From Leucobacter soli (GTDB lineage: Bacteria; Actinomycetota; Actinomycetes; Actinomycetales; Microbacteriaceae), in the NCBI RefSeq assembly GCF_910593785.1, contig NZ_CAJVAP010000011.1:1-64000 (forward strand): a DNA stretch of 64,000 nucleotides. Reading direction: 5' to 3'. Below are positions 6,442-37,253 of this stretch, piece after piece. Every line of letters begins with the position of its first letter. Position 1 is the stretch's first letter. Made by a program: the position numbers and the translations under genes. A model generated the notes under the pieces. That model saw only the letters and a program-made list of their open reading frames with translations, searched no databases and was not told the origin of the DNA.

Positions 6442-7644
6442 CTAGCTTGTCACTACGGCGGCGGTCAGCTGCGACATCGGCTCGCTCAGCGCGTTGAGCT
6501 TCGCCGCGAGCTCGGCTCGGGCATCGTCGTCCACCGTGTCGTAGAACACGAAGCCCTGATCGTAGGAGCCGTAGGTGTCGAGCAGAGCGAACATATCGGC
6601 GAAACGCTCGTCGAGCTGCGCGACGAGGTCGTCGGCGCTGTTCGCGAGCGCGATGCCGCGCGCGGTGTCGAAGGCGACGTAGGATCCCTCGACGTTCGCG
6701 TAGAAATCGTAGAGGTCGGTGTGCGCGAACTCGTTCTCCTCACCGGGGAGCTTGCCGTCGGGAGCGGAGACCTCGTCGAGCAGGCCCTTGGCGCCTTCCG
6801 TGATGTCGGCGAGCGTCAGGGTGAAGTCGGGCGAGGCCACCTTCTCCTTCAGCTCGGTGACATCGGCGACCAGCTGCGCGCCGAGCTCGGCCCGGTCCTC
6901 GGAGCTCAGCGGCTCCAGATCGGGGTCGCCCGGGTAGTCGCCGTTCGCCACGGCGGCATCGTTCCACAGATCCATCTCGATCCGGTGGAAGCCGGTGAAG
7001 GGGATGCCTTCCTCGTCGGCGCCGGGCTTGCGGTAGTCGATCTTCGGGTCGAGGTCGCCGAACTGCTCGGCCGTGGGCTCGATGCGCTCGTAGTTGACGC
7101 GCGCGAGCGGGAAGAGCTGCTTCGCGGTCTCGTCGTCGCCGGAGGTGTAGGCCTCGACGAACTCCTCGACCTTGGGCAGGAGCTCCTCAGTCTGAGTCTT
7201 GACGTAGGCGACGTACTGGGCGACGACCGCGTCCGCCTCGGGAGTGCTCTGCAGAGCCGCTCCGCTCACGCTGAAGGCGGTCTGGCCCACCCCGACGCCG
7301 ATCATGCCGGGCTTGCAGGCGGTGAAGTAGTCGCCGGGGCCGACCTGCACGGTGAGATCGCGCGACGCGCCGGGGGCGATGTTCTCGACCTCGCCGACGA
7401 TCGTGAGGCCGTTCTCGCCGAGCACGTAGAACTCGTTGACCTTGGTGCCCTCGTTCGTCACGGTGAAGACAAGGGTGCCGCTCTCGGCGGTCGCGGTCTC
7501 GACGGCGCAGCCGTCGTCCGAGGCCGTGACGGCGATCTGCTGCTGGGCGTCGCCGCCCGCGTTGGGCACGCAGCCGGTCAGGGCGATCGTGGCCGCGGCG
7601 AGGCTCGTCACTGCGATCGCGCCTCGGGTCGTGATGGTGGTCAC
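6442..7644 (-). CDS. efeO: EfeO, iron-binding lipoprotein of the Efe system
   Basis: Extracytoplasmic iron-binding partner of EfeU. The GTG start at 7644 forms a GTGA overlap with the efeU stop. The 400-residue protein begins with a lipoprotein signal ending in ALTGC. Next come a cupredoxin-like domain (about 35-130) and a helical M75 (imelysin-like) domain containing the metal motif HxxE in 'FHRIEMDLW'. Longer versions of this frame run into efeU and are not real. Confidence 0.95.
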   Translation of the reverse strand: MTTITTRGAIAVTSLAAATIALTGCVPNAGGDAQQQIAVTASDDGCAVETATAESGTLVFTVTNEGTKVNEFYVLGENGLTIVGEVENIAPGASRDLTVQVGPGDYFTACKPGMIGVGVGQTAFSVSGAALQSTPEADAVVAQYVAYVKTQTEELLPKVEEFVEAYTSGDDETAKQLFPLARVNYERIEPTAEQFGDLDPKIDYRKPGADEEGIPFTGFHRIEMDLWNDAAVANGDYPGDPDLEPLSSEDRAELGAQLVADVTELKEKVASPDFTLTLADITEGAKGLLDEVSAPDGKLPGEENEFAHTDLYDFYANVEGSYVAFDTARGIALANSADDLVAQLDERFADMFALLDTYGSYDQGFVFYDTVDDDARAELAAKLNALSEPMSQLTAAVVTS

Positions 7645-8543
7645 TGCTGTTCCTTTCGTACGGTGGTCGTGCGCCTTCCGTCCCTCGCCGCGTAGGACTT
7701 GACGAGGAAGAGCGGAAGGACGATGAGGAGATAGAGCGCCCAGACGATGACCTCGAGCTTGGTCATCTCCGGAGAGAAGCCGATCGTGCCCTTCAGCAGC
7801 ACGCCGAGTACGCCGTCGGGCGGGATGATGTGCGGAATCTGGAAGGCCCATGCGGCCTCGCCGAACCAGGAGGCTGCGAAGGCGCCCGCGCCGATCGGCG
7901 CCGCCATGAAGGGGCCGGGCAGCGCGCCGGCCTCCTGCAGGTCGTGGATCCCGTAGGCGGCGATGCCTGCGGCGAAGAGGATCAGCAGGACCCCGGACCA
8001 GCGGAAGAAGCGGGTGAGGTCGATGCGGAGCAGGCCCCGGTACATGGCCCAGCCGAGGAGCACCGCGACCACGACGCCGGAGACCGCCGAGAGGAATCCG
8101 AGCAGCGGCGAGATATCGCTGGCCCGAGTCGTGGCCCAGATGAAGAGCGCCGTCTCGATCCCCTCGCGCGCGACCGAGACGAAGCCGACCGCGGCGATCC
8201 CCCAGCCGCCGCCGACGAGCGCGCGATCCATCTGCTGCCGCAGGTCCTCCGACATCCCTCTCGCCATGCGCAGCATCCAGAACACCATCCAGGTGACCAT
8301 GACGACTGCGAGGAGCGACAGCAGTCCGCCGATCATCTCCTGCGCGGTGAACGACAGGCCGTACGCACCGAAGGTGAGGATGGCGCCGAGGATCAGCGAG
8401 AGGAGGATCGCTGCGGCGACGCCGACCCAGATCTTGCGCACGGCATCGCGGCACCCGACCCGATTCGCGTAGGCGAGCAGCACACCGACCACGAGGGCCG
8501 CCTCCAGGCCTTCTCGCAGGCCGATCAGCAGCGTGGCGATCAC
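7641..8543 (-). CDS. efeU: EfeU, Ftr1-type iron permease
   Basis: Inner-membrane high-affinity iron permease. About seven membrane helices carry the two REGLE-type motifs, 'REGLEAAL' near the N-terminus and 'REGIETAL' in the middle, which bind ferric iron in Ftr1 relatives. I chose the GTG at 8543 (300 residues) because GAGGGGA lies 6 bases upstream and the protein then starts with the usual 'IATLLIGLREGLEA'; an ATG at 8579 would add 12 residues. It is the first gene of efeUOB. Two abutting palindromes and one ATCAGAT-type motif lie just upstream. Confidence 0.95.
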   Translation of the reverse strand: MIATLLIGLREGLEAALVVGVLLAYANRVGCRDAVRKIWVGVAAAILLSLILGAILTFGAYGLSFTAQEMIGGLLSLLAVVMVTWMVFWMLRMARGMSEDLRQQMDRALVGGGWGIAAVGFVSVAREGIETALFIWATTRASDISPLLGFLSAVSGVVVAVLLGWAMYRGLLRIDLTRFFRWSGVLLILFAAGIAAYGIHDLQEAGALPGPFMAAPIGAGAFAASWFGEAAWAFQIPHIIPPDGVLGVLLKGTIGFSPEMTKLEVIVWALYLLIVLPLFLVKSYAARDGRRTTTVRKEQQ

Positions 8544-8571
8544 GACGGCTCCCCTCGGGTGCCATCTCGGC

Positions 8572-8606
8572 ACCAACATGTGATGTTGGTAAGGCTATCC
8601 TTACCA
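8572..8606. promoter_or_regulatory. Two abutting palindromes in the efeUOB promoter; iron-box-like
   Basis: ACCAACAT-GTG-ATGTTGGT (8572-8590) is a perfect 8-bp dyad. Sharing its last four bases is TGGTAAGG-CTAT-CCTTACCA (8587-8606), also perfect. The second has the AGG-N4-CCT core seen in two other iron-box candidates here and resembles DtxR/IdeR boxes. The position upstream of an iron importer supports iron repression. The first dyad may be a second binding site or an mRNA hairpin. Confidence 0.65.
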
Positions 8607-8624
8607 GCTAAACCTACCACATGT

Positions 8625-8635
8625 TCATCAGATGA
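8625..8635. promoter_or_regulatory. ATCTGAT-type dyad upstream of efeU
   Basis: TCATC-A-GATGA is an odd perfect palindrome. The same core occurs before hemH (10658, 10672) and in the hemA/hemE promoter (11992, 12035, 12049, 12073). It lies about 20 bases beyond the iron-box-like palindrome and 66 bases from the hemQ stop. Confidence 0.45.
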
Positions 8636-8701
8636 TTGCCGCCATCGCGATCCGCGGGTACGCACCCGAAGACGGCACCCGCGGATCCGAGAGCTCGTCT
8701 C

Positions 8702-9442
8702 CTAGCGGAACGCGCGTCCGAGCAGCGTCTCGGCGCTCCGGCGGGGGCCGGTGAAGAACGGCGTCTCCTCGATCACGTGCCGGCGGGCGCCCGTAGCCCG
8801 GAGCTCGCGCATGAGGTCGACGATCCGGAAGAGTTCGTCGGCTTCGAATCCGAGCAGCCACTCGTAGTCGCCGAGGCCGAACGAGGCGACCGTGTTCGCC
8901 AGCACATCGCCGTAGTCCCGCGCTGCGGCGCCGTGCTCTCGCAGCATCTGACTCCGCTCGGCATCGGGCAGCAGGTACCACTCGCGCCCTCGCACGAACG
9001 GGTAGATGCAGAGATATCCCTTGGGCTCCTCCCCCGCGAGGAACGCGGGGACATGCGAACGGTTGAACTCGGCGGCGCGATGCACCCCGATGTTCGACCA
9101 GACCGGCGCGAGGCGGCCGGCTGACTCCTCGAGCACCGCACGATAGGCCGCCTGCAGCGCACCGGACGTCGGCGCGTGCAGCCAGAGCAGAAGATCGGCG
9201 TCGGCGCGGAATCCGGAGACGTCGTACCATCCCCGCACGGTGAGACCGGCCGTCGCGCAGAGACGATCGATGATCGCCCGGATCGCCTCGCCGCCCGGCG
9301 ACGGCGCACTCGGATCCTCGCGGAACACGGCGTACATCGTGTAGTTGACCGCGCTGTTGATCTCTTCAGCGATGTCGGAATGGTCGATGTGCGGAGCAGC
9401 GGAGGGCTGTGCAGCAGAGGGCGATGCAGCGTTGTCGGTCAC
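8702..9442 (-). CDS. hemQ: Coproheme decarboxylase (HemQ/ChdC)
   Basis: Last step of the coproporphyrin-dependent pathway: H2O2-dependent decarboxylation of coproheme to haem b. The 246-residue chlorite-dismutase-fold protein has '[13 protein letters not shown]', where the catalytic tyrosine of the family sits, and '[12 protein letters not shown]' with the likely proximal histidine. '[20 protein letters not shown]' is typical of actinobacterial ChdC. The GTG at 9442 is chosen because AAGGAGA lies 7 bases upstream; the longer frame adds 15 unlikely residues. It is downstream of hemH (59-base gap) and probably co-transcribed. Confidence 0.94.
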
Positions 9443-9501
9443 GGGGAGGTCTCCTTCGTTCTTTCGTGTGTTCTGCGTTCGAGTCACGGGCGCGGTGCCG
9501 C

Positions 9502-10638
9502 TCAGTCCTCGTCGCCTGCGAGCACCGGGACCCCGGTCACCTCGCCGTGCCGCATCCGGCAGCTGCCGGGCGGAGCGACGTCTGGGAAGGCCCCCAGCGC
9601 ACCGACGGTCGGCGCCTCTGCAGCTTCGCCGCGTTCTCGTGCGGCGCGCTCCAGGATCATGTCGACGAGGCCCGAGACGAAGGCCGGGCGCACGCTCGCC
9701 GTGCCCGCGCGGACGGCTCGGATCCCGTGATCCCTGGCCGTCTCCAGCGCCTCGATGTCGAGGTCGAACGCGACCTCCATGTGGTCGGAGACGAAGCCGA
9801 TAGGCGCGATCACGATCTTGCGCACTCCGTTCGCGGCGAGTTCTCCGATGTGATCGTTCACGTCGGGCTCGAGCCAGGGCACGCGCGGGTCTCCCGAACG
9901 GGAGCAGTACGCGAGCGAGGAGTCGAAGCTCGCAGCGGTGCGCGCGGCGAGGATCCGGTCGAGCTCGGCTCGCACGTCCTCGTGCTGCTCGCGATAGCCG
10001 TCCCCGGTCTCGGCCGAGGCGTCCTGCATGGTGTCCGGGATCGAGTGCGTCACGTAGACGATGTGCGCGCCGTCGAGGCCGCCGGCTGCCGCGACGGTCT
10101 CGCTGCCATACCCCTCGCCCAACCGGGCGGCAGCCTCGAGGATCGCCTCGGCGTTCGCCTCGACGAAGCCCAGATCGTTGAAGAACGGTCGCAGCATGTC
10201 GATCCGCAGTTCGTCACCGAGCTCGGCCCGCGCCGCGGCGAGGTGCTCCCTGTACTGCCGGCTTCCGGAGTAGGAGGCGTAGGCACTGGTGACCAGTGTC
10301 AGGATGCGCTTGGCGCCGAACGCCTGCGCGTCGCGGAGCGTATCCACGGTGTAGGGATGCCAGTTCCGGTTGCCCCAGACGACCGGCAGCTCGACGCCTC
10401 GCCGATCCAGTTCGGCGCGCAGCGCGACCAGCAGTGCCAGGTTCTGCTCGTTGATCGGGCTCTTGCCGCCGAAACCGTAGTAGTGCTCCCCGACCTCCTT
10501 CAACCGCGCTTCGGGGATCTGCTTGCCGCGGGTCACGTTCTGCAAGAACGGGAGGACGTCGTCGGGGCCGTTCGGGCCGCCGAACGAACAGAGGAGCAGG
10601 GCGTCGTAGGGCTGAGCTGAGCGAACCATATCCTGCAC
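9502..10638 (-). CDS. hemH: Coproporphyrin ferrochelatase
   Basis: Inserts Fe(II) into coproporphyrin III (CpfC role, inferred from the neighbouring hemQ and cgoX). The 378-residue protein opens with '[22 protein letters not shown]', carries '[17 protein letters not shown]' and the metal-site histidine in '[10 protein letters not shown]', and ends with a family-typical '[17 protein letters not shown]' (quoted in parts). GTG at 10638 has AGGAAGG 10 bases upstream; ATG at 10629 is the alternative. The 70-base gap after hemA holds two ATCTGAT-type dyads, so hemH may have its own control. Confidence 0.94.
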
Positions 10639-10657
10639 GCTATCGGAGCCTTCCTGT

Positions 10658-10682
10658 ACATCTGATGTGATACATCTGATCT
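10658..10682. promoter_or_regulatory. Paired ATCTGAT-type dyads before hemH
   Basis: ACATC-T-GATGT (10658-10668, perfect odd palindrome) and ACATCTGATCT (10672-10682, one mismatch) lie on the same strand, 14 bp centre to centre. The same 14-bp spacing recurs in the hemA/hemE promoter. Confidence 0.55.
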
Positions 10683-10708
10683 GAACTTCTCAGTGTTCCA
10701 TCGACGGT

Positions 10709-11974
10709 TCAGCGACCGAACAGCGCTGCGACGGCGTCACTCGCCTGCTCGGCTCGCCCCTCGCGACCGAGGGCGCGGATCCGCGTCATCGGGTCGTGCA
10801 GCAGACGCCCGGCGAATCGCCGAAGAGCCAGTTCGGCCTCGCTCTCCCCTGTATCGACGACGCCGGAGCCGGAACGGGAGCCCCTGCGCGAACGGTCGAC
10901 CTCGTCCTCGAGCAGCGCGAGCACGTGCTCGCGAACCGCCAGCAACGCCGGAAGAGCCGTGCGCTCGGCCAGGGAGGCATCGAACTCCTCGACGGCCTCC
11001 CGCACGATCCGGGCGGCTTCCGCCTCCACGCCGAGGCCGCGCCCGCCGCCGACACTCGCCATCTCCTCGAGATCGAGCAGGCGGATGTTCGGGAGGTCGG
11101 CCACCCCCGGATCGATGTTCCGAGGCATACCGAGATCGACCAGCACGCGCGTCGCTGCGGGGCCGGGCGCGACGAGCTCCTTCGGCGTGAGCAGAGGCTC
11201 GTCGACGCGGCTGCAGGCGATCACCAGCTCGGACTCCGCGAGCGCGTCCGCGAACCCGCCGGCGCCCACCGCCTCGAGCCCTCTTGCCGCGGCGTACGAC
11301 TCGGCCCGGCCCGAGGGCGAATGCACCTGGATGCGGCGCGCGCCGCGCGCCCGCAGCGCGGTGACGACCGCCCCCGCGTATGCGCCTGTTCCCACGAGCA
11401 GGATCGGCAGCTCCGGCCAGGGCGCCAGGTCATCTTCGACCAGGTCGAGCGCGAACCGGACGATGGATCGACCGGCCGAACGGACCGAGGTGTGCTGCTT
11501 GACGCTGCGGCCGGTTCGTGCGGCGGCCTGGAACAACCGCTCGAGCCGGTGGGTCACGGTGCCGCGCTCCCGTGCCCCGGCATGCGCGCGGCGCACCTGA
11601 CCCGCGATCTCCTCTTCGCCCAGGACCACCGATTCGAGGCCGGCGGTCACGGAGAACAGGTGTTCGACCGCTCGACGGTCGGCGCGCACGGAGGCGGACC
11701 GTCGCACTTCCGCCCCGGGAACGCCGGCGATCCCGGCGATCCGTTCGATCACGGCCTCTCCGAGCGCCTCCCCCTCGACACCCGCGGTCGCCTCGTCCGG
11801 CGCGTTCGGAGCGTCGAGGTAGAGCTCGAATCGATTGCAGGTCGAGAGGACGATCGAACCGTCAGAGAGCGAAGGATCGGATACCGCGACGGCGATGGAC
11901 TCGCCTCCGCGTGCGAGCCGTTCGAGCAGGGCGAAAGGCGCGTTGCTGTGATCGAAGGAGATGGAAAGGAGCAT
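10709..11974 (-). CDS. hemA: Glutamyl-tRNA reductase
   Basis: First committed step of the C5 route: Glu-tRNA to glutamate-1-semialdehyde with NADPH. Of 421 residues, the N-terminal catalytic domain has the thioester Cys46 in 'STCNRFELYL', followed by the NADPH domain ('PILLVGTGAYAGAVVTALRARG') and the C-terminal helical dimerisation domain. ATG at 11974 fits the family start ('MLLSISFDHSNAPFALLERL'). No clear ribosome site is visible. It is divergent from hemE and leads hemA-hemH-hemQ. An ATCTGAT-type dyad lies 18 bases upstream of the start. Confidence 0.95.
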   Translation of the reverse strand: MLLSISFDHSNAPFALLERLARGGESIAVAVSDPSLSDGSIVLSTCNRFELYLDAPNAPDEATAGVEGEALGEAVIERIAGIAGVPGAEVRRSASVRADRRAVEHLFSVTAGLESVVLGEEEIAGQVRRAHAGARERGTVTHRLERLFQAAARTGRSVKQHTSVRSAGRSIVRFALDLVEDDLAPWPELPILLVGTGAYAGAVVTALRARGARRIQVHSPSGRAESYAAARGLEAVGAGGFADALAESELVIACSRVDEPLLTPKELVAPGPAATRVLVDLGMPRNIDPGVADLPNIRLLDLEEMASVGGGRGLGVEAEAARIVREAVEEFDASLAERTALPALLAVREHVLALLEDEVDRSRRGSRSGSGVVDTGESEAELALRRFAGRLLHDPMTRIRALGREGRAEQASDAVAALFGR

Positions 11975-11991
11975 GATCCCTGTTCGAGGAC

Positions 11992-12083
11992 GATCTGATC
12001 TGGTGTTCCAAAGGGTAGTTCATCGAAGCTGAGTACATCTGATCTACCACATCAGATCTATAAGCTAGCATCACGTCTGATGA
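11992..12083. promoter_or_regulatory. Divergent hemA/hemE promoter with four ATCTGAT-type sites
   Basis: The sites are GATC-T-GATC (11992-12000), ACATCTGATCT (12035-12045), ACATCAGATCT (12049-12059, inverted) and ACGTCTGATGA (12073-12083, covering the hemE ATG). The middle two are 14 bp apart, and their ATCTGAT/ATCAGAT cores form an inverted repeat with a 7-bp spacer. Possible hemE -10 boxes are TATAAG (12059-12064) or TAGCAT (12066-12071, 8 bases before ATG), so the dyads would overlap the promoter elements. Confidence 0.55.
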
Positions 12084-13204
12084 ACATTCTCTCAGGTTCG
12101 CACCCGCTCATGGATGGGCGGACGAATAACGCCCCGCTGATCCGCGCCCTCCGGGGCGAACGACCCGAGCGCACCCCGGTCTGGTTCATGCGACAGGCGG
12201 GGCGCTCGCTTCCCGAGTACCGCGCCCTGCGCGCCGAGAACGGCATGCTCGAGGCCTGCCTCGATCCCGCTCTCGCGAGCGAGATCACACTGCAACCCGT
12301 ACGCCGGCACGGGGTCGACGCGGCGGTCTTCTTCAGCGACATCGTCGTGCCGTTCCGCCTGGCCGGTGTCGATGTCGAGCTCGTATCCGGACGCGGGCCG
12401 GTGTTCACCGAGCCCGTGCGCACGAGCGACGACGTCACCCGGCTCCGAGCCGAGCACGGCGCCGATCGCTTGCGCGAAGCGCTGGATCCGGTGCGCGAGG
12501 CGGTTCGGCTCACGACCGCGGAGCTCGGGGGCACCCCCCTGATCGGCTTCACCGGAGCGCCCTTCACCCTCGCGGCCTATCTCGTCGAGGGCGGCCCCTC
12601 GCGCGATCACCTCCGTGCACGCACGCTCATGCACTCGGACCCGGATACCTGGCGTGCGCTGCTCGAATGGGCGGCCGAACTCTGCGGTGTTTTCCTGGAG
12701 GCGCAGGCCGAGGCCGGCGCGAGCGCGGTCCAACTCTTCGACTCGTGGGCGGGGTCGCTCTCGGCAGCGGACTACCGCGACCACGTGGCCTGGGCCTCGC
12801 GTCGCACGCTCGAACCGGTCCGGCGGCTCGGCGTGCGGGACGACCGAGAGGGCGACGGAGAGGCGTCGGCGCGCATCCGCTCCGTTCCGGTCATTCATTT
12901 CGCCGTCGGCTCCGGCCATCTGCTCGAGGAACTGGCGCAGGTCGGAGTGGATGCGCTCGGGGTCGATTGGCGCACGCCGCTCGACGACGCGAGCCGTCGA
13001 CTCGGGCACCTGTTCCCACTGCAGGGCAACCTCGATCCGGCATTCCTCGGCGCACCGCCCCGGGTACTCGAGGATCACGTCGCCGACGTGCTCCGCCGCG
13101 GCGAGCAGGCGCCGGCGCACGTGCTGAACCTCGGTCACGGCGTGCCGCCGACGGCCGACCCCGACGTATTGAGCCGGATCGTGGAGCTCGCTCATGGCGA
13201 CTGA
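12080..13204 (+). CDS. hemE: Uroporphyrinogen decarboxylase
   Basis: Converts uroporphyrinogen III to coproporphyrinogen III in the cytosol. The 374-residue protein has the N-terminal signature 'VWFMRQAGRSLPEYR' and 'FTGAPFTLAAYLVEGG'. Ser replaces the more usual Tyr after 'AGR'. The C-terminal part includes 'LQGNLDPAFL' and 'LNLGHGVPPTADPDVL'. The start ATG 12080 gives the expected 'HPLMDGRT' lead-in. There is no ribosome site, so the message may be leaderless. It is the first gene of a tightly overlapping operon to hemL. Confidence 0.95.
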   Translation: MNILSGSHPLMDGRTNNAPLIRALRGERPERTPVWFMRQAGRSLPEYRALRAENGMLEACLDPALASEITLQPVRRHGVDAAVFFSDIVVPFRLAGVDVELVSGRGPVFTEPVRTSDDVTRLRAEHGADRLREALDPVREAVRLTTAELGGTPLIGFTGAPFTLAAYLVEGGPSRDHLRARTLMHSDPDTWRALLEWAAELCGVFLEAQAEAGASAVQLFDSWAGSLSAADYRDHVAWASRRTLEPVRRLGVRDDREGDGEASARIRSVPVIHFAVGSGHLLEELAQVGVDALGVDWRTPLDDASRRLGHLFPLQGNLDPAFLGAPPRVLEDHVADVLRRGEQAPAHVLNLGHGVPPTADPDVLSRIVELAHGD

Positions 13205-14837
13205 CCGCCGTCCCTCACGCATAGGCGTCATCGGCGGCGGGATCGCCGGCCTGATCGCCGCGCGAGACCTCGCCGCCGCCGGTGCGGACGTGCTGCTACT
13301 CGAGTCGTCTGAGCGACTGGGCGGGCGCATCCGCCGCGAAGAGCTCGACGGCATGCACATCGACATCGGTGCGGAATCGTTCGCGACGCGCGGTGGCGGC
13401 GTCGAGGAGCTGCTGGCCGATCTCGGCCTGCAGGACGCGTTGGTCCGCCCGGCGCCACTCGGCGCCTGGGTCGTCGAGCAGCGATCGGGCTCCGGGCGGG
13501 ACGGGGCGGCGCACGCCGTGCCCCTGCCCTCCGCCGGCGCGATCGGCATCCCCGCCGAGCCGCTCTCCCGGGCGAGTCGGCGCGCGCTCGGCCTCGTCGG
13601 GGCGCTGCGCGCCTCGATCGAGCCCCTGCTGCCCCACTCGATCGGACAAGGGAGCAGTTCCGTCGCCGAGCTGGTGCGGGCAAGGCTCGGCAGGCGCGTG
13701 CTCGACCGCTTGGTCCGCCCGGTCGCCCTCGGCGTCTACTCCGCCGACCCCGCCGACCTCGACATCTCCGCCGTCTCCGGCCTCGCGAGCGCGTTCGCGC
13801 GCCGAGGCTCCCTCGTCGCCGCAGCGGTCGAGCTGCGAGGCAGCCGCACCGCCGCCGGATCCGCGGTCGCCGGCCTCCGCCTCGGCATGGCCAGCTTGGT
13901 GGATGCCCTGACCGACGAGCTCGAGCGTCATAGCGCGGTCGTGAGACTCGGCGCCCACGTGGAACGGATCCTGCCGCTCGCGGACGCGGAACCGAGTCGA
14001 CCGTCGCAGTGCGGCTGGGGTCTGGGCGGGACCTGGGGCGAAGAAGTCGTCGACGCGGTCGTGCTGGCAGTGCCGGAGCGCCCCGCCCGCTGGCTGCTCG
14101 GCGATCGACGACCCGAGCAGGTCGCCGGGCTCTGCGCCGCCCACGATCGGGTCGAAGTCATCGCCATCGCACTCGACGCGCCCGAGCTAGACTCCGCCCC
14201 GCGCGGCACCGGAGCCCTCGTCGCCTCGGGAGACGCCCACGGACGCGACGGAACGCTCGCCGGAGAGCCCCGAACGGACGCGGAGGCTGGCGCGGGTCCC
14301 GACTCGGGTGCGGATCCGACGCCTCGGATCCTCGCCAAAGCGCTCACCCACGTCACGGCGAAATGGCCGGCACGCGCCGCCGCCGCGGGTGCCGGCCGTC
14401 ACGTGCTCCGGCTCTCCTACGGCCGCACGGGCGCCGCGCCCGAGACCGCCCAGCGGGACGATGCGACGACGCTGCGGATCGCGCTGCGCGACGCCTCCCG
14501 GATCCTGGGCAAGGATATCCGTCCCGAGATGGTCCGGGGCATGGTCCGCCGCGAGTGGCGCATCGGCCATCCCACCACCTCGCCGCCCCGGACACCACCC
14601 GGGATCGTGCTCGCCGGCGACTGGGTGAGCGGCACCGGCATCGCCTCGGTCGTCCCGGGCGCGCGAGCCGCTGCGGAGCAGGCGCTGCAGCAGGCGGAGT
14701 CCGCAGCGGTCGACGCGGCGGCTGAGGCGACAGCGACTGAGGCGAAGGCCGAGGCGACGACGACCGACGGGACCGCGAGTGCCGAACGCCGCCCGCTCGC
14801 ACCGGACGCGCACTTCGAAGGAGCGACTGCAGCATGA
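13194..14837 (+). CDS. cgoX: Coproporphyrinogen III oxidase (HemY/CgoX type)
   Basis: FAD enzyme that removes six electrons from coproporphyrinogen III to give coproporphyrin III; in other bacteria the same family acts on protoporphyrinogen. The role here is inferred from hemQ nearby. The 547-residue protein has the dinucleotide fold 'IGVIGGGIAGLIAARDLAAAG' (in parts) and 'ESSERLGGRIRREEL', with the FAD-closing 'LAGDWVSGTGIASVVPGARAA' near the end. It has two low-complexity parts: a Gly/Asp/Ala stretch around 340-375 and an Ala/Glu/Thr tail of about 45 residues after the conserved end. It overlaps hemE by 11 bases. Confidence 0.93.
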   Translation: MATDRRPSRIGVIGGGIAGLIAARDLAAAGADVLLLESSERLGGRIRREELDGMHIDIGAESFATRGGGVEELLADLGLQDALVRPAPLGAWVVEQRSGSGRDGAAHAVPLPSAGAIGIPAEPLSRASRRALGLVGALRASIEPLLPHSIGQGSSSVAELVRARLGRRVLDRLVRPVALGVYSADPADLDISAVSGLASAFARRGSLVAAAVELRGSRTAAGSAVAGLRLGMASLVDALTDELERHSAVVRLGAHVERILPLADAEPSRPSQCGWGLGGTWGEEVVDAVVLAVPERPARWLLGDRRPEQVAGLCAAHDRVEVIAIALDAPELDSAPRGTGALVASGDAHGRDGTLAGEPRTDAEAGAGPDSGADPTPRILAKALTHVTAKWPARAAAAGAGRHVLRLSYGRTGAAPETAQRDDATTLRIALRDASRILGKDIRPEMVRGMVRREWRIGHPTTSPPRTPPGIVLAGDWVSGTGIASVVPGARAAAEQALQQAESAAVDAAAEATATEAKAEATTTDGTASAERRPLAPDAHFEGATAA

Positions 14838-15925
14838 CCATCCAGCATCCGACAACGCCGACGCACGGGCGGGTCTTCGGCGTCGGCGAGGCCGCCCCCG
14901 CCGGCGCCATCCGCGTCGGAACGCGCGGCAGCACCCTCGCGGTCACCCAGACGACGACCGTCGCCGAGGGGATCGCTGAGGCGACGGGGCGCGACGTCGC
15001 ACTCGTCGTGGTGCGCACGCAGGGAGACGCCTCGAGCGCACCGCTCGCTCAGCTAGGCGGCACCGGCGTCTTCGTCAGCGCCCTGCGCGACGCGCTGCTC
15101 GCCGGGACCTGCGACATGATCGTCCACTCGATCAAGGATCTGCCCACGGGCCCCTGCCCCGGCATCGCGCTCGGCGCCGTCCCGCCACGGGCCGACCCGC
15201 GCGACGCCCTCTGCGCGCGCGATGGTCTGACCCTTTCGCAGCTGCCGACCGGCGCCCGCGTCGGAACCGGTTCGCCGCGTCGTGCGGCCCAGCTCCTGGC
15301 CCGTCGCCCCGACCTGGTGGTCACGGGCCTGCGCGGCAACGTCGACACGCGGCTTGCGCGTCTGGAGCAGGATCTCGACGCGATCGTCCTGGCGGCAGCC
15401 GGGCTCGACCGGATCGGCCGCGCCTCGGCCGTCTCGGAGCGCTTCCCGCTGGAGTCGACACCGCCGGCCCCCGGCCAGGGCGCTCTCGCGGTGGAAGTAC
15501 GCGACGCCGAACTGGGCCTATCTCCGTACGCCGAGGCGCTTGCGGCGTTGGACGACGCGCCGAGTCGGGCGTGCTCGCTCGCGGAGCGCGGACTGCTCGC
15601 AGCGCTCGAGGCGGGCTGCGCGGCGCCCGTCGGGGCCTGGGCCCGGATCGTCGGCGATCGGATCGTGCTGCGCGCGGCCGTGTACCGGGTCGACGGCAGC
15701 TCGGCCCTCACCGTCGAAGCCGCTCGCCCGTGGCCGCTGACCGGCAGCCGGGCCGGCGATGAGACCAGCACAGACGAATCCAGCGCAGTCGCCTCCAGCG
15801 CAGTCGAGTCCAGCGCCGATGAGTTCAACGCAGACGAGCTCGCCGCGAGACTGGGCCGGAACGCCGCCGCGGACCTCCTCGATCGCGGCGCAGCCGACCT
15901 CGCCCCGCTGGGCGCGGGATCGTGA
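14834..15925 (+). CDS. hemC: Hydroxymethylbilane synthase (porphobilinogen deaminase)
   Basis: Joins four porphobilinogens into hydroxymethylbilane. The 363-residue protein has '[15 protein letters not shown]', '[10 protein letters not shown]', '[13 protein letters not shown]' and the dipyrromethane-cofactor cysteine Cys262 in '[13 protein letters not shown]'. The C-terminal domain carries an inserted Ser/Glu/Asp/Ala stretch coded by five 15-bp tandem units (15758-15832), which the family lacks. Start overlaps cgoX by ATGA. Confidence 0.95.
15758..15832 (+). repeat. 15-bp tandem repeat inside hemC
   Basis: Five in-frame 15-bp units (consensus near GACGAGTCCAGCGCA) starting at 15758, 15773, 15788, 15803 and 15818 code the pentads [20 protein letters not shown] and DEFNA. 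The unit length keeps frame, so copy number could vary without breaking the enzyme. Confidence 0.8.
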
Positions 15926-16782
15926 CGGCGGTCGCCCCGCTCGCGGGCCGGAGGATCCTCGTGCCGCTCAGCGGCGCGGCCGGTGCTCGCATCTCTGCCG
16001 AGGTTCGCGCTCGAGGCGGCGATCCGGTCGTCTCGCCGCTCACGGAGACGGCCCCGGCTTCGGATGCTCGCGCGCTCCTCGACGCGGCCGAACGCATCGC
16101 ACGCGCGGAGTACGACTGGATCGCCGTCACCAGCGCGAACGGTGCGGAGGCACTGGCGGGCGCGCTCCAAGCGCACGCCACGGAAGCACTGGCGGGCGCT
16201 CTCCGAGCGCACGCCGCTCCCCCGGACTCGATCAGGATCGCCGCCGTGGGCCCGGCGACCGCGCGCGCCCTGGAGAGTCACGGGCTCGCGGTGGATCTGA
16301 TGCCGCGCACGGAGTTCTCCGGCAGCGCTCTGGCCGAGATCCTCGTCACCGCGCTCGACGCCGAGGCCCGCGCCGACGTCCGTGCCGACGCCCCCCGACC
16401 GCGCAGGGTGCTCCTCCCGCTCTCGGAGTCCGCCGACGACACCCTCGAGACGGCGCTCCGTGCCGCCGGGCACCGCCCGGAGCGAGTCGGCGCCTACCGC
16501 ACGGTCGCCGCACCACGCGACCCGGCCGTCGAGGCGGAGGTGGCCGCGGGACGCATCGATGCGCTTCTCGTCCTGAGCGGATCCGCCGCGCACGAGGTCT
16601 CCGAACGATTCGCGCCGATCCCGCCGCGCACCCGGCTCGCCGCGATCGGCGGACCCACCGCACGTGCGCTCGCCTCCCACGGGCTGCGCGCCGCGGTCGT
16701 ATCGGCCGTCCACACCGTTCCCGGGCTGCTCGACGCGCTCGGGGAGGCATTATCCGCACCCACCGAAGGAGCCCACGCATGA
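15922..16782 (+). CDS. hemD: Uroporphyrinogen-III synthase
   Basis: Closes and inverts ring D of hydroxymethylbilane to uroporphyrinogen III. The 286-residue protein has the two-lobe pattern of the divergent HemD family: '[21 protein letters not shown]', '[15 protein letters not shown]', '[16 protein letters not shown]', '[16 protein letters not shown]' and '[17 protein letters not shown]'. The GTG start overlaps hemC by GTGA. It contains a 36-bp tandem duplication (16147-16218) that gives two copies of EALAGAL(Q/R)AHA(T/A). Confidence 0.92.
16147..16218 (+). repeat. 36-bp tandem duplication inside hemD
   Basis: Two adjacent 36-base units (16147-16182, 16183-16218) differ at a few positions and code [12 protein letters not shown] and [12 protein letters not shown] in frame. 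They lie on the surface-helix side of the first domain by family comparison, so they are probably tolerated. Confidence 0.8.
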
Positions 16783-17765
16783 CCCCGGTCATCCGCCCCC
16801 GCCGCCTGCGATCGACCCCGGCGATGCGCCGACTGACGGCGGAAACCCGACTGCATCCGGCCGAGCTGATCCTCCCGATGTTCGTCCGCGAGGGCCTCGC
16901 CGCGCCCCGTGAGATCTCGTCGATGCCCGGCGTCCAGCAGCACACGATCGATTCGCTCGTCCGCGCCGCTGCCGAGGCGGCGGAGGCTGGCATCGGCGGT
17001 GTCATGCTCTTCGGCGTGCCGGCCGCCCGCGATGCGCGAGGCAGCGCCGCCGACGACCCAGACGGCATCCTGAACGCCGCGACCCGCGCCTTGGCCCGAG
17101 AAGTCGGCGACGCCCTCGTCGTCCAGACCGACCTCTGTCTCGACGAGTTCACCGATCACGGCCATTGCGGGGTGCTCGCCGAAGCCCCCGACGGCGGGTC
17201 GCCGGAGGTCGACAACGACGCGACGCTCGACCGCTATTGCGCGATGGCCCTCGCGCAGGCGGAGGCCGGCTCCGCGCTGCTCGGCCTCTCGGGCATGATG
17301 GACGGGCAGGTCGCCGCCGTGCGGAGCGCCCTTGACGGCGCGGGCTTCGAGCGCACCGCGATCCTGGCCTACGCGGCCAAGTACGCCTCGGCCTTCTACG
17401 GGCCGTTCCGCGAGGCCGTGGATTCGCAGCTCGTCGGGGACCGTCGCGGCTACCAGCAGGATCCGGCGAATCGACGCGAGGGCCTGCGCGAGGCCGCCCT
17501 CGACCTCGACGAGGGCGCAGACATCGTGATGGTCAAGCCGGCGATGAGCTACCTCGATGTGCTCGCCGACGTCGCCGCGATGAGTCCGGTTCCGGTCTGG
17601 GCGTACCAGGTCTCGGGCGAGGTCGCGATGATCGAGGCCGCCGCCGCGAACGGATGGATCGACCGGAGACGCGTGATCGAGGAGACGGTCACCGGTATCA
17701 GACGTGCGGGAGCAGATGCCGTGCTGAGCTACTTCGCCGTCGAGCTCGCGGGATGGCTGAAGTGA
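16779..17765 (+). CDS. hemB: Delta-aminolevulinic acid dehydratase (porphobilinogen synthase)
   Basis: Condenses two 5-aminolevulinates to porphobilinogen. The 328-residue protein has the two Schiff-base lysine regions '[14 protein letters not shown]' and '[12 protein letters not shown]'. The metal loop '[17 protein letters not shown]' keeps two of the three cysteines of the zinc type, with Asp in the middle place. ATG at 16779 overlaps hemD by ATGA and has GAAGGAG upstream; an upstream reading of the frame inside hemD is not real. Confidence 0.95.
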
Positions 17766-19123
17766 GCGCGGGGCGGCACGCGGGCACGCGGAGCAGCACA
17801 GCGCGAAGCGAGGAGCTCGCCGCGCGCGCGGGCCGGGTCATCCCCGGGGGTGTCAACTCGCCGGTACGGGCCTTCGCCTCCGTCGGCGGGGCGCCGCGTT
17901 TCCTGGTCTCGGGCCGAGGCGCCTACGTCACCGACGCGGACGGCAACGAGTACACGGATCTGGTGGCGGCCTGGGGACCGGCCCTGCTCGGGCACGCCCA
18001 TCCCGCCGTGATCGACGCGGTGAAGAGCGCGGCGGAACGGGGTCTCGGCTTCGGCGCATCCGTGCCCGCGGAGGCCGAGCTGGCCGAAGAGATCATCTCC
18101 CGCGTGCCGGCGGTCGAGCGCCTGCGTCTCGTCTCCACCGGCACCGAAGCGACCATGACCGCGATCCGCCTCGCGCGCGGGGCCACCGGCCGTCCGCTGC
18201 TCGTGAAGTTCGCCGGGCACTATCACGGACACTCCGACGGACTGCTCGCAGAGGCCGGATCCGGGCTCGCGACCCTGTCGCTGCCTGGATCCGCCGGAGT
18301 CACCGAGGCGACCGCGGCACAGACCCTCGTCCTGCCCTACAACGATCTGCCCGCCCTCGAGGCCGCCTTCACCGAGCACGGTGAGCGGATCGCCGCGATC
18401 ATCGCCGAGGCCGCGGCGGCCAACATGGGCGTGCTGCCGCCCGAGCCCGGCTTCACCCGCAGCATGATCGAGCTCGCCCACCGTCACGGCGCACTCGTGA
18501 TCCTCGACGAGGTGCTCACCGGCTTCCGCGCGGGGCCCTCGGGCTACCTGGGCGTCCTCGGCGACGAGCTGCGCGGCGACGGGACGGGCGACCCGGTCGC
18601 CCCCGATCTCCTGACGTTCGGCAAGGTCGTCGGCGGCGGACTCCCCCTCGCCGCGGTCGGCGGGAGAGCCGATCTGATGGATCTGCTCGCCCCGCTCGGC
18701 CCCGTCTACCAGGCGGGAACGCTCTCGGGCAATCCGGTCGCCCTCGCCGCCGGCCTGACGACCCTGCGACATGCCGATGCCGCCGCTTACAGCCGGATCG
18801 CCGCAGCCGCGGACGCGATCGCGGGAGCCGTCTCGTCCGCCCTCGACGGAGCCGGCGTACCGCACCGGGTGCAGCGGGCAGGCACGCTCTTCAGCGTGCT
18901 CTTCGGCGAGTTCGCCGCCGCTCCTCGGGGCTACGCCGAGGTGCAGCGGCAGGAGACGGTACGCTACCGGGCGTTCTTCCACGCCATGCTGGACCAGGGC
19001 GTCAACCTGCCGCCGAGCGCGTTCGAGGCCTGGTTCGTCACCGCTGCGCACGACGACGCGGCCGTGGAGCGGATCGTCGCGGCGCTCCCGGGCGCGGCAC
19101 GCGCAGCCGCGCGTTCGCTATAG
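17762..19123 (+). CDS. hemL: Glutamate-1-semialdehyde 2,1-aminomutase
   Basis: PLP enzyme forming 5-aminolevulinate, the second step after HemA. The 453-residue protein has '[19 protein letters not shown]', '[16 protein letters not shown]', '[12 protein letters not shown]', '[10 protein letters not shown]' and the PLP lysine in '[18 protein letters not shown]'. I prefer GTG 17762, which makes a GTGA overlap with hemB as elsewhere in this operon; ATG 17753 would add three residues. It is the last haem gene of the rightward operon. Confidence 0.95.
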
Positions 19124-19183: not shown

Positions 19184-19939
19184 ATGCCATCATTCCAGAG
19201 CGGTTCGCAGAAGGCGCGCGATACGCTGACCTTCCTCCGCGCCCGGATCACGAGCGGCGAGTGGGCCATCGGCGAGCTCATCCCGAAGGAGCCCGAGCTC
19301 ATGGAGCTCATCGGCGTCGGCAAGTCGACCGTGCGCGAGGCGGTGCGCTCGCTCGCGACGCTCGGCATGCTCGAGACCGTTCCCGGCGTCGGCACGTTCG
19401 TCCGGGCGCGCACCCCGGTCAGTTCGCTGCTGACCGAGTTCCTCGCGGATCAGGATCTCGAGGAGGTGCTGATCTACCGGCGCTCGCTCGAGATCGAAGC
19501 GGCGCAGTCGGCCGCGGTGCATCGCAGCGATGAACAAGCGGCCGCGCTTCGGGCGGCGTACGAGCGCAGCCTGGTGTCGCGGTCCGAGGAGGCGGATCGG
19601 CACATCGCGATCGACCGGCCCGATTCGTTCCACCGGCTGATCGTCGAGGCGAGCGGGAGCAAGCTGCTGCTCGAACTCTATTCCGGCGTGATGGCCGTTC
19701 TGCGCAGCGCGAGCGACCGCGGCCTGGTGTTCCTCGGCACGACCGTCGAGACCATGCATCTGGACCATCGAGCGGTGCTGGAGGCGATCGAGCAGCGCGA
19801 CGTCCGTCATGCCGCGCATGCGATGGCGTTGCACGTGGACCGGGACCTCGGGCTCCACACCGACATGCTCGATTTCGCGCCGCACACGGAGCGGGTCGAG
19901 ACGTTCATCGAGGCCGGTCTGGATCCCCAGCCCCGGTGA
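19184..19939 (+). CDS. GntR-family (FadR subfamily) transcriptional regulator
   Basis: The 251-residue protein has an N-terminal winged helix ('GELIPKEPELMELIGVGKSTVREAVRSL', in parts) and an FCD-type all-helical ligand domain. Likely metal/ligand histidines sit in 'DSFHRLIVEASGS' and 'MHLDHRAVLEAIEQRD'. It follows hemL by 60 bases and could be co-transcribed, but FadR-type operators (TnGTnnnACnA) are not seen at the hem promoters. The effector is unknown; organic acids are common for this subfamily. Confidence 0.88.
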   Translation: MPSFQSGSQKARDTLTFLRARITSGEWAIGELIPKEPELMELIGVGKSTVREAVRSLATLGMLETVPGVGTFVRARTPVSSLLTEFLADQDLEEVLIYRRSLEIEAAQSAAVHRSDEQAAALRAAYERSLVSRSEEADRHIAIDRPDSFHRLIVEASGSKLLLELYSGVMAVLRSASDRGLVFLGTTVETMHLDHRAVLEAIEQRDVRHAAHAMALHVDRDLGLHTDMLDFAPHTERVETFIEAGLDPQPR

Positions 19940-20088: not shown

Positions 20089-20523
20089 GTGAACCACGAC
20101 GACCGCGCCCAGGATGAGCTCATCTTCATCGACCCGAGCTACCTGGACTGCGTGCTCGCGGCCGGTGACGCCGGCGACCTCCCCGTTCTCCGCGAGTGGT
20201 GCGCCCAGCTCCCGCCGACCGCCTACGGGCGGGTCTTCGTGGAATGCGCGTCCGCCGAGCCCATCGAGCTGCCGGTCCCGACCGGTGTCGGAGTCACCTG
20301 CGTCGCGCCCCGGCCGGGCGGACCCGACGGCAGCGCCGTGGTCGACGCCGTCGAGGCGTGGCTGGACGAGTGGCTGCGCGGGGATCCGCTCAGCGGTCGT
20401 CACATCGCACTGTGGGCCGGCGCGCAGGGATCCCCGGCCGCTCGCGACCACTGGAGCCGCGTGGAGTCGGAGCTCGCCGAGATCTGGGCGGCAGCGGCCG
20501 AGTACCGCGCCCAGTCCGCGTAG
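20089..20523 (+). CDS. Stand-alone SIP-domain protein (siderophore-interacting C-terminal domain)
   Basis: The 144-residue protein resembles the C-terminal NAD(P)H-binding half of siderophore-interacting (ViuB-like) ferric reductases: 'IFIDPSYLDCVLAAGDAGDLP', 'AYGRVFVECASAEPIELPVP', 'GRHIALWAGAQGSPAARDHW' (quoted in parts). The FAD-binding half is missing, so it either partners a separate flavoprotein or has another role. GTG 20089 is probably leaderless and sits under an iron box. It converges with dps. Confidence 0.8.
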   Translation: MNHDDRAQDELIFIDPSYLDCVLAAGDAGDLPVLREWCAQLPPTAYGRVFVECASAEPIELPVPTGVGVTCVAPRPGGPDGSAVVDAVEAWLDEWLRGDPLSGRHIALWAGAQGSPAARDHWSRVESELAEIWAAAAEYRAQSA

Positions 20524-35522: not shown

Positions 35523-37219
35523 GCCGCGGCCCCGATCCGCACGACCCGATCGGCCGCACCGATCAGCTCCGGCCGGTGGCTCACCACGAGCACCGCCCGC
35601 CCGGCGGCGGCCTCGGCGCGGAGCACCTGCGCGACGCGCGCCTCGCTCGCCGCGTCGAGCGCGGAACTCGGCTCGTCGAGGATCAGCGCCTCGGCGTCGA
35701 TCGTCCAGGCGCGGTGCATCGCCCGCGCGATGGCGACGCGCTGCGCCTGACCGCCCGAGAGGCCGGCGCCCGAGGCCCCCAGTTCGAGCTCGGTGTCGAG
35801 CTCCGGCAGCCCGGCCTCTGCGAGCGCGCGTCGAATCCGAGCCGGATCCCGAGTCTCCGCGCCCAGCGCGACGTTCTCCGCGACGCTCCCCTGCAACAAC
35901 CCCGGCTGCTGCCCGGCCCAGGCGAGCGCCGCCGGGCTCGCGAGCGTCCCGGAGCAGGGCTCGACGAAGCCCAGCAGCGCGGCGACGAGCGTCGACTTGC
36001 CGGATCCGGACGGCCCGGTGAGCGCCACGACCTCTCCGGGCGAGACCGCGAACGAGATCGGCCCGACGACGGGACGGCCGCCCCGCTCGATCACGACCCG
36101 GTCGAGGACGATGCCGGGCCGGGCGCCGCGGTGATCCGAAACGCTGTGATCCGAAGCGCCGTGATCCGAAGCGCCGTGATCCGAACCGCCGTGAGCCGCG
36201 GCGGGCCGGGACTCGGGATCCTGCCCCTCGATGATCGCGAAGACGTCCTCGGCGGCGGTGAGTCCCTCGGCCGAGGCGTGGAACGCCGCGCCGACCTGAC
36301 GGATCGGTATGAAGACCTCGGGCAGCAGGAGCAGTACGAACAGGCCGAGCGCGAGGGGGAACTCGCCGACGACGAGTCGCGTGCCGACGGTCACCGCGAC
36401 GATGGCGATCGAGAAGGTGCCGGCGAGGTCCAGCACGAATCCCGAGAGGAACGCCACGCGCAGAACGTGCATGGTGCGCGAGCGGTACTCCCCGGTCTCA
36501 CGTGCGATCCGTGCGACCTGATGCTGCTCCCTGCGGAAGATCCTGAGCGTGGCGAGCCCTTCCACCGCGTCGAGGAAGGCGCCGGAGAGCCGCTGCAGCT
36601 GCGCCCACTGCCGTTCCTGCACGCTCCGGGTCGCGAGCCCGATGAGGACCATGAATACCGGGATCACGGGGAACACCAGCAGCACGGTGATGCCGCTCAC
36701 CGGATCGGCGAGCAGCACCGCGAGCACCAGCAGCGGAGTCGCGCAGCCGGTGAGAATGAGCTGCGGCAGGTAGTTCGAGAAATAGCCGTCGAGCGCGTCG
36801 AGGCCGCGCCCGAGCGCCGTGGTCGGGGCCGCGTCCGGCCGTTCCGCGAGCCAAACCGGCGAGCGCGCATCGAGCGCATCGAGCGCTGCGGAGCGCAACT
36901 GCGCCTTCACGCGGACCGCGCCGCGGGCCGCGAGCAGATCGATGCCCCAGGAAGCGCCCGAGCGAACGATCACGGCGAGCGCCGCACCGGCGAGCAGTCC
37001 GGGCAGCGCACCGGGATCAGGCGCCCACTCGGCCACGCGCCCGGCACGCCCGGTCTCGTTCCCGAGCACCGGGATCACGAGTGCGGCGATGGCCTGCGCC
37101 GCGCACCAGCACCAGGCGATGACCGCGAGGCTGCGGACCAGGCCGAGGAGCCCCCCGAATCCGAGAACGCTGCGCGCGCTGCGGGCGTAACGCAGCAGTC
37201 TCGGATCGAGGGGCTTCAT
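35519..37219 (-). CDS. cydD: CydD, ABC exporter for cytochrome bd assembly
   Basis: Partner of CydC, 566 residues, with six membrane helices and an ATPase with 'TGPSGSGKSTLVAALLG', 'LSGGQAQRVAIARAM' and 'ALILDEPSSALD'. ATG 37219 has AGGA 8 bases upstream; the longer frame adds 22 unlikely residues. The linker between the membrane and ATPase domains is a pentapeptide repeat (GASDH type) coded by four 15-bp units. Confidence 0.94.
   Translation of the reverse strand: MKPLDPRLLRYARSARSVLGFGGLLGLVRSLAVIAWCWCAAQAIAALVIPVLGNETGRAGRVAEWAPDPGALPGLLAGAALAVIVRSGASWGIDLLAARGAVRVKAQLRSAALDALDARSPVWLAERPDAAPTTALGRGLDALDGYFSNYLPQLILTGCATPLLVLAVLLADPVSGITVLLVFPVIPVFMVLIGLATRSVQERQWAQLQRLSGAFLDAVEGLATLRIFRREQHQVARIARETGEYRSRTMHVLRVAFLSGFVLDLAGTFSIAIVAVTVGTRLVVGEFPLALGLFVLLLLPEVFIPIRQVGAAFHASAEGLTAAEDVFAIIEGQDPESRPAAAHGGSDHGASDHGASDHSVSDHRGARPGIVLDRVVIERGGRPVVGPISFAVSPGEVVALTGPSGSGKSTLVAALLGFVEPCSGTLASPAALAWAGQQPGLLQGSVAENVALGAETRDPARIRRALAEAGLPELDTELELGASGAGLSGGQAQRVAIARAMHRAWTIDAEALILDEPSSALDAASEARVAQVLRAEAAAGRAVLVVSHRPELIGAADRVVRIGAAA
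36131..36190. repeat. 15-bp tandem repeat inside cydD
   Basis: Four units of GTGATCCGAA(G/A/C)CGC(C/T) start at 36131, 36146, 36161 and 36176 and code (G/S)-(A/V)-S-D-H pentads on the minus strand. Histidines and aspartates make this linker unusually polar. Confidence 0.85.
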
Positions 37220-37253
37220 CAGATCTATCCTAGGGACCTTCGGTTCAGGCATC

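Follow-up and report, generated by a model that had tools for sequence, protein, structure and literature searches.

Palindromes at haem and iron genes of Leucobacter soli as probable operators of a small GntR family

The stretch of DNA analysed here, hereafter the window, comprises positions 1 to 64,000 of contig NZ_CAJVAP010000011.1 of Leucobacter soli (assembly GCF_910593785.1). It carries a haem-synthesis operon and the iron-import gene efeU, with 11-bp palindromes built on an ATCWGAT core in the gaps between genes. These palindromes are very probably operators of a small family of GntR regulators, and the haem operon itself ends with the gene for one of them, gntR-A. Judging from sequence comparisons, it is also likely that two paralogous FCD-type regulators, GntR-A and GntR-B, share a regulon of haem, iron and respiration genes through these palindromes. 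The sites, their conservation, the gene linkage, the co-occurrence with GntR genes and the change in flanking bases were all observed in silico.

Palindromes in the window

The seven palindromic 11-mers listed in a first-pass annotation of the window were all verified, at 8625, 10658, 10672, 11991, 12035, 12049 and 12073; the fourth had been placed one base off, at 11992. The gaps at efeU, hemH and hemA/hemE contain all of them, as annotated, and the 14-bp spacing reported for the copies in the hemH and hemE regions is exact in both pairs. The ATCWGAT core is exact in 6 of the 7 copies, the one at 12073 reading GTCTGAT. The only perfect ACATCTGATGT is the copy at 10658, and the only perfect TCATCAGATGA is the copy at 8625. 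An overlap with the hemE promoter and start codon had also been proposed. The start codon is indeed covered by the degenerate third box, but the promoter is represented by a -10-like hexamer recognised by eye, and a consensus scan returned no sigma-70 promoter at hemE. The boxes and the genes around them are as follows.

12035..12045: putative hemE operator, upstream box of the 14-bp pair, ACATCTGATCT, beginning 43 bp before the start codon
12049..12059: putative hemE operator, downstream box of the pair, ACATCAGATCT, beginning 29 bp before the start codon
12066..12071, + strand: TAGCAT, -10-like hexamer of the presumed hemE promoter, by eye
12073..12083: degenerate third box over the hemE start codon, ACGTCTGATGA
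11991..12001: single box near the hemA start, CGATCTGATCT
10658..10668: putative hemH operator, box 1, ACATCTGATGT
10672..10682: putative hemH operator, box 2, ACATCTGATCT, 14 bp from box 1
8625..8635: putative efeU operator, T-type (see below), TCATCAGATGA
7641..8579, - strand: efeU, NF041756 above cut-off
8702..9487, - strand: hemQ, NF042928 above cut-off
9502..10638, - strand: hemH, ferrochelatase, best model 395 bits, just below the cut-off of 408
10709..11974, - strand: hemA, glutamyl-tRNA reductase, NF000750 above cut-off
12080..13204, + strand: hemE, TIGR01464 above cut-off
13194..19123, + strand: remainder of the hem operon (hemY, hemC, hemD-like, hemB, hemL); hemY models fall below cut-off, and the hemD-like gene, with no NCBIfam match at 1e-20, is named by position
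19184..19939, + strand: gntR-A, GntR regulator with an FCD domain, PF00392 and PF07729 above cut-off

The window holds 13 exact ATCWGAT cores against 4.4 expected, a count reached in none of 100 shuffles; 7 of the 13 lie outside the first-pass list. Once one mismatch is tolerated, the core is barely enriched (90 versus 74.5; 5 of the 100 shuffles as high). Genes were called by a program trained on open reading frames (ORFs) of the window and on longer stretches of its own genome, which fails at lower GC, where the longest ORF served as fallback; in loci L381, L385 and L461 ORFs were fused or over-extended, and in-gene marks were judged by eye. The exact core is not specific on its own, since 61 of the 82 own-genome sites examined fall within called genes, a sample biased because stretches were fetched around matches. 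The 7-mer, being common inside genes, was dropped as a genome-wide marker. Of the 14 own-genome sites with a perfect CATCWGATG, 7 are outside called genes, at efeU, hemH, a haem oxygenase gene, an ABC-transporter pair, sdhC, a small membrane protein gene and a gap between Ig-like secreted protein and nitroreductase genes.

The hemE operator and gntR-A across Leucobacter

Of 80 actinobacterial hemE loci, 18 are from named Leucobacter, and 15 of these have the exact pair ATCWGAT-N7-ATCWGAT within 200 bp upstream of the gene; the same 200-bp stretches in the 62 non-Leucobacter loci contained neither the pair (0/62) nor an exact core (0/62). The nearest hemE loci among named genomes were those of Leucobacter. 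The pair occurred anywhere in the genome in 39 of the 54 genomes of our genus sample. Conservation at hemE of relatives, which had been suggested as a check, came out in favour of the motif. No box at the position corresponding to 11991 was seen in the hemE upstream stretches of relatives that were read. Of 20 further hemE loci of the family, taken from whole genomes, 17 lacked an exact core; the hemE genes of the three with a core (G183, G114 and G110), at 71-74% identity, are closer to Leucobacter than those of the remaining loci.

The window copy of GntR-A matches PF00392 at 59.7 bits (cut-off 27) and PF07729 at 59.6 bits (cut-off 24.3), as GntR-B likewise does, and thus has the N-terminal winged helix and C-terminal FCD domain of the FadR subfamily. 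The metal ligands of FCD domains are one Asp and three His. The His motifs were retained in 33-34 of 34 GntR-A rows, and an Asp or Glu at -4 of the first FCD His was present in 20 of 20 GntR-B rows and in 3 of 34 GntR-A rows (the GntR-B set counts the G110 gene twice and so holds 19 distinct genes). Nine of the first 80 residues, including 35, 40, 42 and 69, differ between GntR-A and GntR-B at ≥85%.

An orthologue of gntR-A was present in 42 of the 54 genus genomes, scored as a match of the 67-76% class (the two pieces in G059 being counted) and as absent where only a match of the ~50% class was found. The pair occurred in 38 of these 42 genomes and in one of the 12 others, G058. Counts at hemE cover 39 genomes with gntR-A and 9 without, six genus genomes without a hemE match being left out. 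The exact pair stood at hemE in 36 of the 39, the other 3 having one mismatch, and in 1 of the 9, again G058. In the remaining eight genomes without gntR-A, five had two exact hemE cores, near -29 and at -5, and three had a single core at -5, so that the place of the third box at the hemE start held an exact core in 8 of 8. Their boxes are mostly T-type, with spacings other than 14 bp. With both orientations pooled and related genomes included, base -5 of the 75 paired hemE boxes (those of G058 among them) was A in 95%, and that of the 13 boxes from the eight genomes without gntR-A was T in 85%. On the hemE tree, on which several forks are weakly supported, the presence of gntR-A requires two changes, one of them G058. 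The gain of gntR-A and the change of the operator coincide, as one event.

Two hemE-bearing genomes stood out for other reasons: no hemA or hemL match was found inside the L. tardus stretch (L076), and no hemA match in G011. Another source of aminolevulinate is possible in both.

In 27 of 30 loci gntR-A lies next to a haem-related gene (13 times hemH, 13 times the gene for an importer's binding protein and, in the window, hemL); one of the 3 loci without such a neighbour is near a contig end. Among the 13 hemH-linked loci of relatives, 11 have an exact ATCWGAT in the interval separating gntR-A from hemH. G053 and G059 share one arrangement, in which hemH and one or more boxes are followed, divergently, by the genes for permease, ATPase and binding protein and by gntR-A; G090 has this order with hemQ replacing hemH, and G039 has the binding protein plus hemH with the pair, the intervening ORFs having been fused by the gene caller. 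By likeness, the linked importer may be of the haem type: in G042 its ATPase has a haem ABC ATPase as best model, below cut-off (182 versus 261 bits), the best model of its permease, BtuC, is also below cut-off, and its binding protein has PF01497.

The genomes G053 (L380) and G059 (L384) have no hemE match and keep hemH, the ABC importer and gntR-A with boxes; hemQ is also kept in G053. One of these two hemE-less gntR-A genomes has the 14-bp pair and the other a single box. Their gene content would fit scavenging of haem or coproporphyrin.

Directly 3' of gntR-A, at 20089-20523, the window encodes a small protein with a siderophore-interacting (SIP) domain match, PF04954, just below cut-off. 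Relatives of this protein in L403 and L412 have TTCATCAGATGAA shortly upstream.

GntR-B, single sites and other genera

The paralogue GntR-B (G000:C45) was present in 53 of the 54 genus genomes and is 78-88% conserved among the Leucobacter copies compared. The T-type pattern TTCATCWGATGAA occurred 63 times in 37 of the 54 genomes, compared with one occurrence of the reversed pattern, an imperfect control in that TAG and CTA are part of the reversed pattern. Among the 63, 46 distinct sites were examined, and 39 of these were outside called genes. Neighbours of T-type sites include genes for haem oxygenase, sdhC, ctaE-qcrC, aconitase, efeU, efeB, SIP proteins, FecCD transporters and hemE, as well as an AraC-type regulator gene beside a likely siderophore-binding protein gene; sites in L291, L311, L313 and L417 have no evident link to haem or iron. 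T-type sites upstream of efeU recur in G003 and G011, and the 13-mer at the haem oxygenase gene was found, by coordinates, in four further genomes (G002, G010, G053 and G059). The haem and iron regulon proposed in the first-pass annotation is supported by these sites and appears larger than proposed, taking in haem synthesis, haem or iron import, haem oxygenase, succinate dehydrogenase, cytochrome oxidase and aconitase.

The excess over the reversed pattern, imperfect as that control is, bears on the idea that the copies are coincidental, or are a promoter element instead of operators. The 7-mer core is common inside genes and scarcely enriched once one mismatch is allowed, and the boxes overlap the presumed -35 region, all of which would suit that idea. 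However, the exact 14-bp spacing is preserved across the genus and no core lies upstream of hemE in the 62 loci of other genera. We consider this explanation extremely improbable, and a chance origin of the window palindromes was rejected on the shuffles, the conservation of the pair in the genus and the absence of the core at hemE of other genera.

A second alternative is that GntR-B alone binds all sites, paired or single, and that GntR-A controls something else near the haem genes. The near-universal presence and good conservation of GntR-B agree with it, as do the ATCWGAT cores that hemE has with or without GntR-A. It does not account for the A-type pair at hemE where gntR-A is present, for the box between gntR-A and hemH, or for the difference in base -5 between genomes with and without gntR-A, and we regard it as unlikely. 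We infer instead that A-type sites belong to GntR-A and T-type sites to GntR-B.

Cys-Pro motifs are known to serve as haem-regulatory motifs. A CxxCP motif in the effector domain of GntR-B (L284:1325-2107), a possible motif of this kind, was invariant in all 20 rows, and the protein has exactly two cysteines, both within it. A cysteine is present in the same linker in 31 of 34 GntR-A rows and absent from the window copy. That GntR-B senses haem is a guess; sensing by this cysteine mode is unlikely for the GntR-A of the window.

In a sample of 150 genomes of the family, 14 encode an A- or B-like GntR at E ≤ 1e-40. TCATCWGATGA was found in 14 of these 14 and in 35 of the 136 others (Fisher p = 3.8e-8, an optimistic value because the genomes are related). 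In three genera (G104, G081 and G335) a GntR homologue adjoins a ferrochelatase-like gene, with 3, 2 and 2 copies of TCATCWGATGA, respectively, between or over the two starts as called. The ferrochelatase-like genes of G104 and G335 are above the TIGR00109 cut-off; that of G081 was recognised by BLAST at 27% identity, and its start is not settled. The three homologues form one group, separate from GntR-A and GntR-B. Further sites lie before efeU homologues (35% identity) in G133 and G195, before haem oxygenase and HtaA protein genes in G151, and before sdhC in G069. Position inside or outside genes was tried as a separator of genomes with and without the GntR and failed.

Several observations weigh against a shared GntR regulon. 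The L. soli genome itself has no TTCATCWGATGAA and only two TCATCWGATGA. Across 17 gntR-B loci, one of which (L398) has no call for the gene, neither an ATCWGAT close to the gntR-B start nor a hem gene nearby was found. Of 30 haem oxygenase loci read, 5 have an exact core where it would be expected, so that this gene does not qualify as a general target. With just two changes on the hemE tree, the agreement of gntR-A with the pair amounts to one event, and G058 (80% complete) carries the pair with no gntR-A match. No box lies between gntR-A and hemH in 19 of the 30 stretches read, in 13 of which the importer gene adjoins, and in G042 gntR-A is ~10 kb from the importer and hemH, which flank three boxes. 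In the other genera, three sites in G082 and one in G090 are within genes, and extragenic sites show no clear excess in 12 loci with the GntR (8/15) over 18 loci without it (7/18), as counted with a gene caller that errs in at least G081.

Known systems and a candidate mechanism

The first-pass annotation had set the GntR gene after hemL aside as regulator. This exclusion was reversed because the palindrome equals the operator of LutR, gntR-A is linked to haem genes and GntR homologues co-occur with the sites. LutR of B. subtilis is a GntR protein with the operator TCATC-N-GATGA (PMC11734750, available part), a pattern that 8625-8635 and the T-type sites of the genus match. The LutR DNA-binding domain, compared through the 8PQM chain, matches GntR-A (E = 7e-4), GntR-B (E = 8.6e-5) and the G335 homologue, so that both the 11-bp palindrome and the DNA-binding domain have their counterpart in LutR. 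LutR controls the use of L-lactate, whereas the Leucobacter sites adjoin haem, iron and respiratory genes; unlike LutR, Leucobacter also has sites paired at 14 bp and a second paralogue.

HrrSA and ChrSA are two-component systems, and their response regulator belongs to a protein family other than GntR. A haem-responsive system of this kind would be another candidate to bind the palindrome. In Corynebacterium, according to the available part of PMC7337898, its targets include haem synthesis, haem oxygenase, ctaE-qcrCAB and sdh, a set and a logic similar to those of the proposed Leucobacter regulon (hemA, hemE, hemH, hmuO, ctaE-qcrCAB and sdhCD being close to the HrrA set), and the HrrA motif is also palindromic. 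The Leucobacter palindrome, however, is that of an established GntR operator, and linkage of GntR homologues to haem genes and to the boxes was seen both within the genus and in three other genera, which makes a two-component regulator of these sites very unlikely.

A different type of element stands beside some palindromes. DtxR-box-like dyads were seen by eye at L011:1502, L045:2069 and L062:2044, upstream of haem oxygenase in L315, and at efeU in the window; they differ in sequence from the palindrome, and their adjacency suggests joint control by iron and haem, with DtxR/IdeR as a candidate for the iron side. The window dyad and one further box, which is absent from the first-pass list, are as follows.

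8585..8604: dyad beside the putative efeU operator, ttggtaaggctatccttacc, by eye, which we take to resemble a DtxR box
37216..37226: box over the cydD start codon, TCATCAGATCT, core at 37218

The latter sits in a cydA-cydB-cydD-cydC cluster, in which cydA stays below its model cut-off and the other three exceed theirs, and resembles the third hemE box in its placement over a start codon. The cyd cluster is a further candidate haem-related target.

We infer physical binding, repression and a ligand as follows. GntR-B would be the general regulator of the haem, iron and respiration regulon, acting through single T-C-ATCWGAT-G-A sites, and GntR-A (19184-19939) would act on haem synthesis and haem or iron import through A-S-ATCWGAT-S-T boxes 14 bp apart. 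One GntR dimer would occupy each palindrome; two dimers on the hemE boxes would span -43 to -29, the presumed -35 region, and block RNA polymerase, so that hemE might be repressed under an abundance of haem (or of a porphyrin or iron signal). More tentatively, a joint reading can be entertained, though we hold it to be doubtful: a GntR paralogue may have arisen in one Leucobacter lineage, changed its DNA contacts (near-fixed differences at 35, 40, 42 and 69) and taken over the hemE operator, whose T-type boxes, ~25 bp apart, would have given way in parallel to A-type boxes with the 14-bp spacing, with the older GntR-B sensing haem directly through CxxCP.

GntR-based control of haem appears to be a kind for which we found no earlier report: no GntR haem regulator appeared among the titles and abstracts listed. 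A 2024 review of the regulation of haem synthesis names, in its available part, C. glutamicum and C. diphtheriae among the Actinomycetota whose mechanisms are known, and gives a putative IdeR case in Mycobacterium (PMC10991733); the word GntR is absent from it. One Leucobacter with hmuTUV that has possibly lost hemABCE is described in the available part of PMC6868719, and the hemE-less genomes that retain hemH and gntR-A bear on haem-dependent Leucobacter. The coincident paralogue and operator change offer a readable case of regulatory rewiring. If GntR-B does sense haem, FCD-type GntR proteins would form a new class among the haem sensors of bacteria. With a candidate regulator and a defined operator, the control of haem in Leucobacter and its relatives becomes open to direct tests.

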